Of a stretch of DNA of 34,294 nt, positions 5,746 through 17,891 are shown in pieces. The notes under the pieces are model-generated. The model made no database searches. It was given only the letters and a program-made list of their open reading frames with translations, and was not told where the DNA came from. The stretch lies in the NCBI GenBank assembly GCA_945957555.1, contig CAMFLX010000039.1:1-34294 (forward strand). Direction: 5' to 3'. How positions within the stretch are numbered: the first letter of the stretch is position 1; each line of letters starts with the position of its first letter. The stretch is from an uncultured Cytophagales bacterium. Lineage in GTDB: Bacteria; Bacteroidota; Bacteroidia; Cytophagales; UBA9547. Position numbers and translations under genes: made by a program.

Positions 5746-5843
5746 CTGTTTTTTTAAGGTAAAGTGTTCTTAAATTCTGAGTAAGCGTGAAGATCTTGAA
5801 GAAACAGTCAAACTAAAACGAATCCAAATTACTTAGCGTGGGG

Positions 5844-5871
5844 TTTGAAAATCATTATTTTTATATATTTG
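5844..5871 (+). promoter_or_regulatory. Candidate Bacteroidota promoter for the Hsp90-like operon
   Basis: TATATTTG at 5864-5871 matches the -7 consensus TAnnTTTG. TTTG at 5844-5847 could be the -33 element, with a 16-base gap that is slightly short. The ATG of the Hsp90-like gene is 24 bases downstream. Confidence 0.5.
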
Positions 5872-5895
5872 TACAGTATATCTATAGCTTAACAC

Positions 5896-7671
5896 ATGGG
5901 AAACGCCATTTTTCAAGTCAATCTCTCTGGAGTTTTAAAAGTTCTTTCTGATAGCCTTTACAGCAATTGGGAAGTATTCATTAGGGAGCTCTTGCAAAAC
6001 GCCAACGACGCCATCTTGGCAAGAAAACTCAAGGAAGATTTTGAGGCATCTATTCATGTCGATTTTTTTGAAACAGCCCAGTCCAAAGTTCTTATCCTTA
6101 AAGACAACGGCATTGGTCTTACCTCTGAGGAAATGGTGGAGTTCCTCTCAAAGATCGGCTCTAGTTCCAAGAGGGATACCGCAGACCTATTCAATCGGGA
6201 ACAACAGTCTTTCATAGGGCAATTTGGCATTGGCCTTTTGTCTTGTTTTATGGTATCGGATACCATAGAGGTGCTGAGTACTTCTATAGCCAATACTAAA
6301 ACTATGAAATGGATTGGCAAGGCTGATGGGACCTATTCCATGGAAGAATCATCCCACAACGATAGGGTCGGCACTACTGTAAAGCTTGAGATCAAAAGTG
6401 ATATTGCGCTTGATCCGGATAAAATGGTCGCGCTCTTGCATAAATATGGAGATTATCTGCCCGTAAACCTTTCTTATTCCTATAATGCCGGGAAAGAAAG
6501 CTTTTTCAACAAAGAATTCCCATGGCTCAAAAAAGACAGCTTGGGCAATGATGCCTTGCTTTTGGGCAATAAAACTTTCAACGAACGTTTCACGCATTTT
6601 TTCTCAATTCAAGATGAGGACGGCAGTACGCGAGGTATTGCTTACATTCTCCCAAGGGCTACGCATACTGCAACGCAGAGCAAACATGTTTTATACATCA
6701 AGAAGATGTTTATCTCTAGTGACTGCGATGAGATCTTGCCTGCTTGGGCCTTTTTTGTGAAGGCGATCGTAAACTCCGACAATCTGGCCACCACGGCCTC
6801 TAGGGAATCGGTATACCACAATGACACCTTGGAGCGCGTAAAGGCCTCTTTGGGCAAAAGCATCATTCAACATTTGGTACAGTTGAGTAAAAACGATCCC
6901 GATAGCCTAAAGGAAATCATCCTGATCCATGGGCAAGCGCTCAAGGCACTGGCGCTTGAAGATGATGCCTTTTTCGAATTCATTTCAGACTGGTTTATAT
7001 TTCCTACCACAGAAGGTGTATTGTCTTTTGCGGAGATCAAAGCGCTGAGTGATAAGATCCTCTTTGTTTCCGATATCGACGAATACAGGCAGATTGCTCC
7101 AGTGGCTCGAGCCAATAATCAATTGGTGATTAACGCGGGTTACATCTACGATACCCCGATCTTGCAAAAGCTCATGATCGCTGATAAGTTTGACCGACTC
7201 ACACTCATAGACCCTGAATATTTTGGCAATATCCTCAACGATCTGGATGTGGAGCTATATGATGACCTGCGTGCAAGGATAGAAGCCATGCAGGTGGTGC
7301 TCATGGAGTTTGATGTGGAACTGGACGTAAAGGCCTTTGAACCCAAAAACTTGCCTGCTATGTTCTATATGTCACAAGACGACGTACAGAAACGTGATTT
7401 CGAAAACATTCAAAGCGAATCGGATGATCTCTGGGCAGGAGTTTCGGATGCTGTGCTCGATTTTGAAACAGGATTCAGGTCTAAGCTCTTTTTGAATTAC
7501 AGTAATGAGATCGTTCAGAAACTCTTGAATACAGACTCTAGCAAAAAGATTGATCCCTATGTGCAGATGATTTATTTTAATGCACTTATGATGGGGCACT
7601 ACCCGATCTCCAATAAGGAGCTCGCCCGAATGAACGAAAACATACTCTTCTTGATCAACAACAATTTGTAA
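5896..7671 (+). CDS. Hsp90-family (HtpG-like) GHKL ATPase
   Basis: The protein has 591 residues. The ATP-binding domain shows the Hsp90 N-box ELLQNANDAI (31-40, catalytic Glu31, Asn35, Asp38), DNGIG (70-74), a glycine lid segment GQFGIG (108-113) and GTT at 159-161. The middle domain keeps the arginine of the Hsp90 SRE motif (Arg303 in TTASRESVY), although the glutamine that usually follows four residues later is replaced by tyrosine. The C-terminal third (from about 440) is divergent and would hold the dimerisation region. This places it with the divergent bacterial 'HSP90 family protein' group rather than classical HtpG, which is usually about 620 residues and more conserved. It is followed after only 3 bases by the helical-repeat gene, so the two are surely cotranscribed. 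Clients are unknown. Confidence 0.88.
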   Translation: MGNAIFQVNLSGVLKVLSDSLYSNWEVFIRELLQNANDAILARKLKEDFEASIHVDFFETAQSKVLILKDNGIGLTSEEMVEFLSKIGSSSKRDTADLFNREQQSFIGQFGIGLLSCFMVSDTIEVLSTSIANTKTMKWIGKADGTYSMEESSHNDRVGTTVKLEIKSDIALDPDKMVALLHKYGDYLPVNLSYSYNAGKESFFNKEFPWLKKDSLGNDALLLGNKTFNERFTHFFSIQDEDGSTRGIAYILPRATHTATQSKHVLYIKKMFISSDCDEILPAWAFFVKAIVNSDNLATTASRESVYHNDTLERVKASLGKSIIQHLVQLSKNDPDSLKEIILIHGQALKALALEDDAFFEFISDWFIFPTTEGVLSFAEIKALSDKILFVSDIDEYRQIAPVARANNQLVINAGYIYDTPILQKLMIADKFDRLTLIDPEYFGNILNDLDVELYDDLRARIEAMQVVLMEFDVELDVKAFEPKNLPAMFYMSQDDVQKRDFENIQSESDDLWAGVSDAVLDFETGFRSKLFLNYSNEIVQKLLNTDSSKKIDPYVQMIYFNALMMGHYPISNKELARMNENILFLINNNL

Positions 7672-7674
7672 ACA

Positions 7675-8781
7675 ATGAGTTTTGAATTTAACACCAAGGA
7701 AGATATAGAGTATAACATATATTCCTTACAATATGCCGATGAGTCTGAGGAAAACGAAAAGGTACTCCAAAAATGCATTCAAAAAGCACAATTATTCAAA
7801 GACAAAGATCTGGAGTTTGATGCCCGCTTGGGCTACTTGCGACAGGTAAACTGGCTCAACAAAAAGGAGAAAGCCATCGCGACCATGCCTTGGCTGCTCA
7901 AAAGGATAGATGAAGGACACAATCAAGATAGTGCCCATACAGTACTTTGGATGTACAAATGGATCATCATTAACCTCTCTGATTTTGCTGCAATTTCTTT
8001 ATCACAAATCGACCAGCTCCTCAACGACATGGAGAAGAGGTTTTTGGATCATGGTACGGGCATGAGGATCATCCACTACTTTAGGATGATCGTGAACAGC
8101 GATTTGGGCAATATGTCTCAAGCACTGGAACACATGAAGTTGTACCTTAAGGACAATAAGTCTTGTGATCTTGACGACTGCAAGGCCTGTCAGCCCAATA
8201 ACCTCTTGGATGTGTATTTGAATCTCAAGGATTTTGATAATTTTCAGAAAAAGGCAAAACCTTTATTGGCGAGGACAGTGACCTGCAAAGAAGTGCCAGA
8301 TTTCACGTATTCCAAGACGGCCATGGTCAATTATATACTGGGTAAATATGATGTTGCTACAGAACAAGCGCTTTTGGCCCGGAAAAAAATCAATCTCAAG
8401 AAAGCGGTACTGAAGGAAATGGGACATTTACTCAGCTATTATGCATTGACCAAGGAGTTTGTTAAAGGTCGTACTATTTTGGAGAAACAATTGGACTTCT
8501 GCGCCCATACTCAACCAGAATTGTTTCTGTTTCGCTTTTATCTAGGCACATTAATGTTTTTCAAAGCACTACAAGGTGCTGGCAAAAAACAAATCAAGCT
8601 CAATATCGCTTCTCAAAACCTCATTCCTGTACAAGATGGGGTATGTAAAGTGCCTGAGGCGGTAACTTGGCTAGAGCAGCAAGTTCAAAGCCTCGCCGAT
8701 AAACTGAATACCAGAAATGGTAATGAGTTTTATAATGAAGAGAAGGTTTATTATTTGGGACTACTCGAAGGGAGAGTTTAG
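7675..8781 (+). CDS. Helical (TPR-like) partner protein of the Hsp90-like ATPase
   Basis: The 368-residue protein is almost entirely predicted alpha-helical, in paired helices resembling degenerate TPR or related solenoid repeats (for example around 25-75, 140-160, 210-240 and 250-275). A cysteine cluster interrupts the helices: C164, C169 and C172 in SCDLDDCKACQP, with C204 downstream, possibly a metal site. There are no membrane segments or signal peptide, so it is expected in the cytoplasm. The ATG at 7675 comes 3 bases after the stop of the Hsp90-like gene, which implies translational coupling and a joint function. Eukaryotic Hsp90 uses TPR co-chaperones; whether this is an analogous partner is inference. 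I do not recognise a named family with certainty. Confidence 0.8.
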   Translation: MSFEFNTKEDIEYNIYSLQYADESEENEKVLQKCIQKAQLFKDKDLEFDARLGYLRQVNWLNKKEKAIATMPWLLKRIDEGHNQDSAHTVLWMYKWIIINLSDFAAISLSQIDQLLNDMEKRFLDHGTGMRIIHYFRMIVNSDLGNMSQALEHMKLYLKDNKSCDLDDCKACQPNNLLDVYLNLKDFDNFQKKAKPLLARTVTCKEVPDFTYSKTAMVNYILGKYDVATEQALLARKKINLKKAVLKEMGHLLSYYALTKEFVKGRTILEKQLDFCAHTQPELFLFRFYLGTLMFFKALQGAGKKQIKLNIASQNLIPVQDGVCKVPEAVTWLEQQVQSLADKLNTRNGNEFYNEEKVYYLGLLEGRV

Positions 8782-8910: not shown

Positions 8911-10077
8911 ATGGGCGAGACTATATTTCATTTAGACAATGAAGGTAAACTTACCGAATTAAATGAATCGAATTATATTTCAGAAGATTTATTGCAACAA
9001 CTCTTAGCGGACTACCCCAATTTAATGTCAGGAGCTCAAATAAATAATTTACGTCCAAGAAGATGGTTGCTCATCTCTCGTGAATTTAGAGTTCCTGATG
9101 AAAAGGACACAGCAGGAGGATGGAGTTTAGACCATCTTTTCATTGATCAAGACGGTATCCCTACATTGGTAGAAGTTAAGCGAAGCACGGATACGCGTAT
9201 AAGAAGAGAGGTTGTTGGTCAGATTCTTGACTATGCTGCCAATGCCGTTACCTATTGGGCAATGGAAGAGATAATTCATTGTTTTGAAGAACAATGCAAA
9301 TTGGCAAACAAGGATAGTGAAGAGGCTTTGCAAAATTTTTTGCAAGGTGAAAATGAAGCAACTATTTTCTGGGAACTTACCAAGACCAATCTGAAAGCGG
9401 GAAAAATCAGAATGTTGATCATTGCTGACAGCATACCAAAAGAACTACAAAGAATAATTGAATTTTTAAATGGACAGATGACTCCGGCCGAAATTTTAGG
9501 AGTAGAAATAAAACAGTTTATAGGTCATAATAATGTTAAAACGCTTGTACCTAAAGTAATAGGCCAAACAGCAATAGCCGACAATACAAAAGGGATCAAT
9601 AACGTCTTAAATTCAAACTGGTCAGAAGAAACTTTTTTAGCAACTTTGTCGCAACGTAGCCAAGGGGACGCTGATATTGTACATCAGTTGTTAAACTGGC
9701 TAAGGCCTCAAGTAACGAGGATTTGGTATGGTTCTGGCAAACGAGGATCTATGGTTCCTGTGTTCAAATACTTAGGTGTTGACTATTACCTTTTTGCTTT
9801 GTGGACTTATGGTGTTGTTGAAGTTTATTTTCAGTGGCACAAACTAAAACCCCCATTTGACAGTGATCAAAAACGTTTGGAACTGTTAAATAGATTAAAC
9901 CAGATTAAAGGAGTTGGCATATCTGCTGATAAAATATCGGCCCGACCTACGTTTCCTCTTAGCCTGCTTTCAGAAACAGCACAATTCCAGAAATTTATAG
10001 AAACCTATAAGTGGTTTTTAGAGGAAATCAAAAACCATAATAGCAAACCTAATTCTAATAATCTAAATGCATCATAA
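8911..10077 (+). CDS. PD-(D/E)XK nuclease-domain protein
   Basis: The 388-residue protein has a restriction-endonuclease-like core near its N-terminus: Asp74 in WSLDHLFID, then Glu88-Val-Lys90 in TLVEVKRS, and Gln104 in VGQILDYAA. This is the D...ExK...Q pattern of the PD-(D/E)XK fold, close to NucS-type and DUF-type cytosolic nucleases. The C-terminal part (about 225-370) looks like a separate mixed alpha/beta domain with YGSGKRGSMVPVF and many aromatic residues, perhaps for substrate recognition. No helicase or methylase partner is adjacent. It follows the Hsp90-like pair by 129 bases on the same strand and may have its own promoter. DNA cleavage is inferred from the motif only. A defence or repair role is plausible. 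Confidence 0.82.
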   Translation: MGETIFHLDNEGKLTELNESNYISEDLLQQLLADYPNLMSGAQINNLRPRRWLLISREFRVPDEKDTAGGWSLDHLFIDQDGIPTLVEVKRSTDTRIRREVVGQILDYAANAVTYWAMEEIIHCFEEQCKLANKDSEEALQNFLQGENEATIFWELTKTNLKAGKIRMLIIADSIPKELQRIIEFLNGQMTPAEILGVEIKQFIGHNNVKTLVPKVIGQTAIADNTKGINNVLNSNWSEETFLATLSQRSQGDADIVHQLLNWLRPQVTRIWYGSGKRGSMVPVFKYLGVDYYLFALWTYGVVEVYFQWHKLKPPFDSDQKRLELLNRLNQIKGVGISADKISARPTFPLSLLSETAQFQKFIETYKWFLEEIKNHNSKPNSNNLNAS

Positions 10078-10219: not shown

Positions 10220-10738
10220 ATGTCAAACAAAACAACGCTATTCCTAATTGGCACATTGCTCTTCATAGGTCTTTTCGGCTTCATCTTACCGGGTGATAGT
10301 CCCAACAAAGTAACTCAGTTCGGCTTGGGTGCCGCTCACTTAGTGGCTCTGTATATGTTAATCAATAACGGTACCTTGCGAAACACATGGTTTTGGGCTC
10401 TTATTCAGGGCTGTGTACTTCTCGTGCTTTTGGGAGCTATGTTTAAGATCATGCACTGGCCTTATGGAAACCTTATGGTGGCAGTAGGTCTCAGTATTAT
10501 TGGGCTTGCCTACCTAGCTTCATTTATCCGTAAACCCTCCAAGGGTGTTTTTGATGTTCTTAAACTCATTTGGGTCTGGCTCAACTATGGCAGCATAGTA
10601 TTGTTTCTATACAGAATCATTGATGCTTTCGCTTACTACTGGACTGGCATCTTCTCCACCCTGTTGTTTTGGGGACTCGTGATTTACTTCGCTATACAGG
10701 TATTTAGTGAGCGCGAAATTGCAAATGAGACGGAATAA
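10220..10738 (+). CDS. Small polytopic membrane protein, GldL-like
   Basis: The protein has 172 residues with about six membrane helices (roughly 5-23, 33-48, 56-76, 84-102, 112-132 and 138-163). The segment GAMFKIMHWPYGNLMVAVG resembles the first half of GldL, the Bacteroidota gliding and type IX secretion component, where a K-x-x-H-W-P/LP-type motif lies between two helices. However the long cytoplasmic tail of real GldL is missing. Many short proteins of this kind occur in Bacteroidota outside the gld operon, and I take this as one of those. The ATG at 10220 is preceded by an A/T-rich leader. It is followed by the 21-bp tandem repeat region. Confidence 0.75.
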   Translation: MSNKTTLFLIGTLLFIGLFGFILPGDSPNKVTQFGLGAAHLVALYMLINNGTLRNTWFWALIQGCVLLVLLGAMFKIMHWPYGNLMVAVGLSIIGLAYLASFIRKPSKGVFDVLKLIWVWLNYGSIVLFLYRIIDAFAYYWTGIFSTLLFWGLVIYFAIQVFSEREIANETE

Positions 10739-16973: not shown

Positions 16974-17891
16974 CTACAGTTCTTCAATCCCTATCTTCCA
17001 GACATAAACTTTTCTGTCATCACTTACCGAAATGAGCGCTTTTTCCTTCCATAAGAGCTTATTGATGGAGGTGCCATGTCCTGCATGTCTCGATTTGTCA
17101 ATGACCTTGATTAAGGAGAGTGTCTGTGCATCCCAAATTTTGATAGACTTGTCCATGCTACAACTGGCAAAATATTTAAAGTCTGGTCGGTATTGTAAAT
17201 GATTAATGGCAAATAGGTGTGCGGGAATCGATTTTAAATTCAAATACCCTGTTTTAGTATCCCAATAGTTGATCGTGGCATCCCTGCCTGCCGAAAGCAG
17301 ATATTCTCCTCTCGCATCATATTGCAGCGTAAATACCGAGTTCGTGTGGGTTTTGAGCTCAAATTTGAGTTGGAACTCGTCTAGATCGAAAATCCTAATG
17401 CTATGGTCGCTAAAGCCAACTGCGAATTCATTGTTCTGGATGTTAATGGCGATACAGCGCGCACTCATGTTGCTGTAATCTAGAGTTTTAATAAGCGTGA
17501 GGGATTCTAAATGGTAAAGTAAAATCTTTCCGGTGTGTGTGGCTATTATTAATAGGTTTTTGTGGTATTGGATCTCGAAGAAGGTGTATTCTGGAAGGGG
17601 GATATTGGCCGTTTCTTTTCCAGACGCAATATCTAGGAATCTAATGCCTTTGAGGTTTTCGCAAATGACCAAAAGCTGGCGCTCAGGAATGAGCTTCATA
17701 GCATATATAGAGTTCTCAAGTTTTGTGATGAGTTTGCCTTGGTCGGGAATATTCAGATCCCACTTTACCACCATTCCGTCTCCGCCTGCTGTATAAAATT
17801 CTGATTCATTTAGGGCTGGACAGAGTGCATAGATGCAGTCTAAGTGGCCAGAATAGGTGTCCGTTTTCTCGATTTGTATGCGTGGTCTCAT
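16974..17891 (-). CDS. WD40-repeat beta-propeller protein
   Basis: The 305-residue protein is made of about seven WD40-type repeats. The clearest are near the ends: HLDCIYALCPALNESEFYTA then GGDGMVVKWDL; VFTLQYDARGEYLLSAGRD then ATINYWDT; INHLQYRPDFKYFASCSMDK then SIKIWDAQ; and ALISVSDDRKVYVWKI. The middle repeats are more diverged. The protein has no signal peptide and is likely cytoplasmic. It would form one closed propeller acting as a protein-interaction scaffold; the partner is unknown. It is divergent from the phosphopantetheinyl transferase gene, with a 164-base shared upstream region. Similar stand-alone WD40 proteins are common in Cytophagia. Confidence 0.92.
   Translation of the reverse strand: MRPRIQIEKTDTYSGHLDCIYALCPALNESEFYTAGGDGMVVKWDLNIPDQGKLITKLENSIYAMKLIPERQLLVICENLKGIRFLDIASGKETANIPLPEYTFFEIQYHKNLLIIATHTGKILLYHLESLTLIKTLDYSNMSARCIAINIQNNEFAVGFSDHSIRIFDLDEFQLKFELKTHTNSVFTLQYDARGEYLLSAGRDATINYWDTKTGYLNLKSIPAHLFAINHLQYRPDFKYFASCSMDKSIKIWDAQTLSLIKVIDKSRHAGHGTSINKLLWKEKALISVSDDRKVYVWKIGIEEL

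Follow-up and report, generated by a model that had tools for sequence, protein, structure and literature searches.

A divergent bacterial Hsp90 lineage is paired with a predicted TPR-superhelix protein, its likely dedicated co-chaperone

Introduction

Does a bacterial Hsp90 have a protein partner of its own? The question is raised by two genes in the window, the whole 34,294-nt stretch of DNA analysed here, which derives from an uncultured Cytophagales bacterium and whose nearest named proteins point to Bacteroidota; gene 1, encoding a divergent Hsp90, and gene 2, encoding a helical protein, lie on the same strand and in the same frame with 3 bases between them (Table 1). Eukaryotic co-chaperones of the Hop/CHIP type are built on a three-repeat carboxylate clamp and the MEEVD tail of Hsp90. 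For bacteria, the available part of Press et al. 2013 (PMC3708813) states that no obligate Hsp90 co-chaperones have been identified, with the hsp90B and hsp90C paralogues left aside. A preliminary description of the locus had proposed a dedicated two-gene chaperone or conflict system. Among the titles and abstracts listed in searches of openly licensed literature we found no description of the pairing; other papers in print may contain one.

Table 1. Features of the Hsp90 locus, in window coordinates
Feature	Position	Strand	Basis or conservation
Possible Bacteroidota-type promoter, TTTG-N16-TATATTTG	5844..5871	+	pattern match alone, weak
Gene 1, divergent full-length Hsp90, 591 aa, NF010683 / PRK14083	5896..7671	+	
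N-terminal ATPase motif E31/N35/D38 with family mark Q34	5986..6009	+	row alignment
GQFGIGLLSCFM, glycine-rich ATP-site motif with family mark C117	6217..6252	+	row alignment
Middle-domain SRE-x-x-Y, R303 retained, glutamine replaced by Y307	6799..6816	+	row alignment
Gene 2, predicted TPR-superhelix partner, 368 aa, 3 bases past gene 1	7675..8781	+	
Partner cysteines C164 (not conserved), C169 and C172 (DCxAC)	8164..8190	+	homologue alignment
Third conserved cysteine C204 with P208 (CKEVP)	8284..8298	+	C204 100/104, P208 99/104
C-terminal RNGN motif, R347-N350	8713..8724	+	homologue alignment

Results

Gene 1 belongs to a separate Hsp90 lineage

Gene 1 matched the NCBIfam model NF010683 (PRK14083, "HSP90 family protein") over residues 4-589 with 579.7 bits, where the curated cut-off is 455, and scored 203.3 bits against the HtpG model PRK05218, short of that model's curated cut-off of 371. 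In a FastTree tree it is separated from every one of the 48 HtpG-type rows (support 0.91, read from the rerooted tree), these rows being Hsp90 matches under the NF010683 cut-off whose class was not set by the HtpG model. The N-terminal, middle and C-terminal domains of the Hsp90 superfamily are all present, together with the Bergerat-fold E, N, D, DxGxG and GxxGxG motifs and the middle-domain arginine (E31, N35, D38, DNGIG 70-74, GQFGIG 108-113 and S302-R303-E304). E31, N35 and D38 are invariant in the 81 family rows that are ungapped at these positions (the other 8 of 89 have gaps) and in all 48 HtpG-type rows, as is R303 (88/88 and 48/48), so the preliminary description had correctly read the nucleotide motifs and the SRE arginine as kept. 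Gene 1 thus shares with HtpG its ATP-site residues and middle-domain arginine, and in the predicted model the same three-domain fold.

The family is set apart from HtpG by three marks. Position 34 is Q in all 81 NF010683-family rows with a letter there and S in 48/48 HtpG-type rows; position 117 is C in 77 of 89 family rows and A in 8, against V, A or S in 46/48; and position 307 is Y in 76/89 against Q in 48/48, which makes the diverged glutamine noticed earlier a real difference. The C-terminal third, also described earlier as diverged, has 12.1% identity to the other Hsp90 of the same genome, yet the median within its own family is 28.8%, which indicates a line of its own rather than decay. 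That second Hsp90, the one more detected by a Pfam model, is HtpG-type and lies on a different contig. Gene 1 ends in ...ILFLINNNL, with no MEEVD-like acidic tail.

The available part of Chen et al. 2006 (PMC1525184) divides Hsp90 into groups A, B and C, with deep bacterial lineages beside the main HtpG line, and describes no partner; group C is the probable place of the gene 1 family. The name and description of NF010683 / PRK14083, of which gene 1 is a member, are likewise silent on a partner, and the linkage reported here is the new part.

Upstream of gene 1, a putative promoter resembles the Bacteroidota-type motif TAnnTTTG. Such patterns occur 5 times in the window against 2.57 expected, and 9 of 100 shuffles reach 5; promoter and terminator scans were near chance.

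Gene 2 encodes a predicted TPR superhelix

Gene 2, present in one copy in the source genome, had no match in Pfam (TPR models included), NCBIfam or PADLOC, nor did any PDB sequence match it at E values up to 1. Its predicted model is a confident TPR superhelix (pLDDT 96.8), all-helical except for two short strands, which agrees with the earlier reading of an all-helical, TPR-like protein; structure comparison of the model found helix pairs that stack in the manner of solved TPR superhelices. The closest folds include the ligand sensors MalT domain III, Rap and NprR, and the predicted similarity extends to RRNPP sensors (Rap, NprR, AimR) as a type. RRNPP peptide sensors comprise a TPR domain, an effector domain of their own and a cognate peptide gene. 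Gene 2 differs in having no DNA-binding or ATPase domain, with sequence identity to these proteins and MalT domain III at 7-13%; no extra effector domain is seen in its model.

Across homologues the partner is marked by a conserved DCxAC, by one more cysteine and by an RN motif. The C-x4-C-x2-C cluster of the preliminary description does exist, as C164/C169/C172, but C164 is a cysteine in just 10 of 106 homologues, and we rejected this spacing as a functional cluster; the conserved trio is C169 (102/105), C172 (102/106) and C204. As read from the alignment, these three cysteines allow metal binding, no more. Within the RNGN motif, R347 and N348 are each retained in 84 of 87 homologues, G349 in 63/87 and N350 in 65/87. 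Partner lengths vary among relatives, and those of actinobacteria are usually much extended at the C-terminus by a segment containing canonical TPRs, the Pfam TPR match being clear in L090 and L111 and at the cut-off in L100. A protein search with the partner profile gained just 2 further sequences.

The partner adjoins this Hsp90 across phyla

Eighty named loci were fetched by Hsp90 alone, as the best 80 of 548 confirmed stretches, and a gene 2 homologue adjoins the Hsp90 in 76 of these 80, downstream on the same strand in 75 and convergent in one (L074). At L045 the contig end truncates the partner, whose remainder probably lies on another contig, and the L068 contig stops with the Hsp90, too early to show a partner. 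Flexithrix (L070) and an Oscillospiraceae locus (L097) have no adjoining partner; elsewhere in the genome the first encodes one partner and the second two. Profile A2, which was derived by searching proteins with gene 2 and so takes no account of neighbourhood, detects the partner in 74/80 of the same best 80 of 548, whereas profile A3 favours partners adjoining Hsp90, having been built largely from them. Among 74 measurable pairs, with start codons picked by rule, spacing falls within -60 to +30 nt in 71, including 22 at exactly -4 and 13 at -1, which suggests, from gene layout, coupled translation of the pair.

No partner was found beside the Hsp90 gene in the 48 HtpG-type loci, 47 of which have short flanks, extending about 1.5 kb past the match and often less than 1 kb past the gene; this limit does not affect the whole-genome searches below. 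The preliminary description had proposed scoring how often the two genes are adjacent. Adjacency in 76/80 loci against 0/48 HtpG-type loci greatly exceeds chance and strongly supports its dedicated two-gene pairing, homologues of the second gene being rarely apart from Hsp90.

Tandem partners stand beside a single Hsp90 in Listeria (L069, L169) and Micromonosporaceae (L096). Some arrangements depart further from the pair. A plasmid of Actinomyces oris encodes a partner of 1011 aa (L168 4001-7036, +) with no annotated Hsp90 within the 9 kb shown, and in Oscillospiraceae tandem partners of 757 and 385 aa (L163 4298-7721, -) lie in an Hsp90-free 16 kb, the Hsp90 being at L097. At L171 a family Hsp90 is reduced to its ATPase domain (5828-6490, +; 220 aa) and has no partner; 80 bases after it begins a 1320-aa ORF whose start, in our reading, resembles an AAA/STAND ATPase.

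Partner and Hsp90 co-occur in whole genomes

Across 758 genomes of three phyla (296 + 149 + 199 + 118, minus 4 genomes common to both Bacillota sets, each counted once), in searches that scored only the best first-look candidates, the partner was found in 47 of 48 genomes with an NF010683-type Hsp90, and a full-length partner in 0 of 710 others. Three genomes (G000, G296, G297) were included because they bear the pair; excluding these gives 44/45. The one exception is G667, whose Hsp90 is intact and in which no partner was found. In another genome, G759, only the first 220 residues of the Hsp90 remain; the protein scores under the cut-off, no partner is present, and the genome was counted as lacking Hsp90.

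In the window's phylum, the Hsp90 exceeded the cut-off in 2/296 genomes and a full-length partner occurred in the same 2 alone; weak partial partner matches in 8 genomes (E 1.9e-6 to 7.4e-4) were not counted. Actinomycetota contributed 4 of 149 genomes, with 5 copies each of Hsp90 and partner, all adjacent. The Hsp90 was present in 3 of 199 Bacillota genomes, the same 3 having the partner (one with tandem partners), and one further genome gave a weak partial partner match (E 4.1e-7), also uncounted. Within the family of Paenibacillus xylanexedens, 42 of 118 genomes have the Hsp90 and 41 of these 42 the partner, in all 41 within 100 nt; tandem partners occur in 4/42, and none of the 76 genomes without the Hsp90 has a partner.

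Distances in the Hsp90 tree correlate with those in the partner tree over 74 pairs (r 0.89, against a maximum of 0.17 among 1000 shuffles), which shows co-inheritance only, since no control gene was compared. The loci compared span 8 named phyla; L070, L088, L097 and L107 were omitted by choice, and L045, L054 and L068 because the partner was too short.

Annotated window genes are housekeeping, and flanks vary among relatives

Window genes include HrpB, cellulase, CTP synthase, YidC, NADH dehydrogenase and UvrB. Gene 1 matched PADLOC models through the shared GHKL ATPase fold only, with TmtA at up to 53.4 bits over residues 9-129 and type II restriction enzyme models weaker than TmtA; the pair matches no described anti-phage system, gene 2 having no match at all. 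From 47 Bacteroidota and Bacillota loci we took 136 flanking ORFs, as longest-ORF picks rather than gene calls, and scanned 130 against PADLOC and Pfam, 6 from Listeria loci (L069, L089) being omitted. Among these 130, with no control set, no recurrent defence family was found, and the cross-matches were scattered. Given housekeeping genes in the annotated part of the window, varied flanks among relatives and no defence family beyond the GHKL fold, the conflict-system half of the earlier proposal is not supported.

A third operon gene was also considered and rejected: after clustering of 690 flanking ORFs, no family is widely shared, the commonest, which resembles ABC-type ATPases, reaching 13 of the best 80 of 548 loci, and ORFs following the pair point either way (53 vs 39).

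Several other genes of the window are recorded here for themselves. The gene 129 bases past the pair (8911-10077, +) matches the PADLOC candidate defence family PDC-S11 (E 7e-15), and its product looks nuclease-like in our reading. A 172-aa product (10220-10738, +) matches the N-terminus of GldL, a type IX secretion motor protein, over a short stretch; a 305-aa WD40 propeller protein is encoded at 16974-17891 (-); and about 3.7 kb upstream of the Hsp90 lies a gene for a small protein with DnaJ and KTSC domains (1786-2241, -).

Discussion

We consider that gene 2 likely encodes a dedicated TPR co-chaperone of the gene 1 Hsp90, the two forming one chaperone machine, with a probability of about 0.55. 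This reading is based on the observed family match, the pairing, the absence of the partner beside HtpG-type genes and the conserved residues, and on the predicted TPR superhelix. Its stronger form, in which an ancient lineage spanning at least eight phyla works only with a TPR-superhelix partner, unlike HtpG, as an obligate dedicated co-chaperone system, is held more tentatively, at somewhat short of even odds. Against a co-chaperone unit stand the partner-less genome G667 and partners apart from Hsp90 in the L070 and L097 genomes and on the Actinomyces oris plasmid. Nor is a contact visible in a joined-pair AF2 run, in which both proteins were modelled with confidence and their mutual placement was not (pTM 0.62; two-residue tether; 12 paired rows, for which 11 in-frame relatives were used), a result that speaks neither for nor against an interface.

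Pairing by itself cannot separate a co-chaperone from a client, and gene 2 might encode a TPR sensor or scaffold folded by a private Hsp90, as steroid receptors and kinases need the eukaryotic one. The tandem partner copies beside one Hsp90 (L069, L169, L096 and 4/42 genomes), the ligand sensors among the closest folds, and lengths that vary as those of clients might, all fit a dedicated client. We nonetheless regard it as unlikely, given that the partner's motif set is retained across the sampled phyla and that the 710 genomes without an NF010683-type Hsp90, many having an HtpG-type one, hold no full-length partner. The proteins could also be co-regulated in a shared pathway and act, without contact, on a common unlinked target. 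The AF2 run, with no interface resolved, is compatible with this, and there is no common third gene to name a pathway; however, start/stop overlap at -4 or -1 in 35/74 pairs and near-strict retention over eight phyla are more usual for complexes, making this explanation improbable.

An anti-phage or other conflict system, with the Hsp90 as ATPase and the TPR protein as sensor or effector, would suit the patchy distribution (2/296 genomes of the window's phylum), the hit on PDC-S11 by the gene after the pair and the existence of defence proteins among GHKL ATPases, such as TmtA. It is very unlikely all the same: annotated window genes are housekeeping, the gene 2 model has no added effector domain, the Hsp90 is common in one Bacillota family (42/118), and the PADLOC matches in the 130 flanking proteins, with at most 6 members per family and no control set, resemble scattered ATPase and helicase cross-matches. 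Accidental adjacency, which just L070 and L097 favour, the genes there standing apart, is refuted by the counts in loci (76/80 vs 0/48) and in genomes (41/42), and its probability is close to nil.

If gene 2 is a co-chaperone, the concave face of its superhelix would bind a client or peptide, which would then be passed to the Hsp90 dimer. It might also tune the Hsp90 ATP cycle, the middle-domain loop having a tyrosine in place of the HtpG-type glutamine, and C169, C172 and C204 would form a thiol site or bind a structural metal. The extended partners of actinobacteria, with canonical TPRs at their C-terminal ends, look like a lengthened form of this adaptor. The likeness to Hop, FKBP51/52 and CHIP, TPR proteins serving Hsp90, would be one of role. 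Gene 2 has no Pfam TPR match and is, as predicted, one long superhelix rather than a three-repeat clamp, and because the gene 1 Hsp90 has no MEEVD tail, the contact would differ from the eukaryotic carboxylate clamp.

The pairing suggests a likely role for an unnamed protein family and a function lead for genes annotated as hypothetical, among them the two that neighbour Hsp90 in Listeria. Gene order in Listeria monocytogenes is fri, an HSP90 family protein, two hypothetical proteins, SMI1/KNR4, a phosphatase and an lmo0937-family protein, and both hypotheticals (L169 5797-7765, +) are tandem partners (E 7.7e-66 and 1.1e-63). Counting up from lmo0937, and with lmo0942 adjoining fri in the available part of PMC3534079, these would be lmo0941 and lmo0940. 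The available part of PMC6901971 lists lmo0941, of unknown function, among loci with selection signatures in neuroinvasive strains; the methods used there differ as to the lineage concerned.

A near-fixed TPR partner of one divergent lineage would offer a simple two-protein system in which to test how Hsp90 acquired co-chaperones. If the stronger reading, an obligate co-chaperone system, is true, bacteria have their own, structurally distinct version of the alliance between Hsp90 and TPR proteins that has been regarded as a eukaryotic trait.
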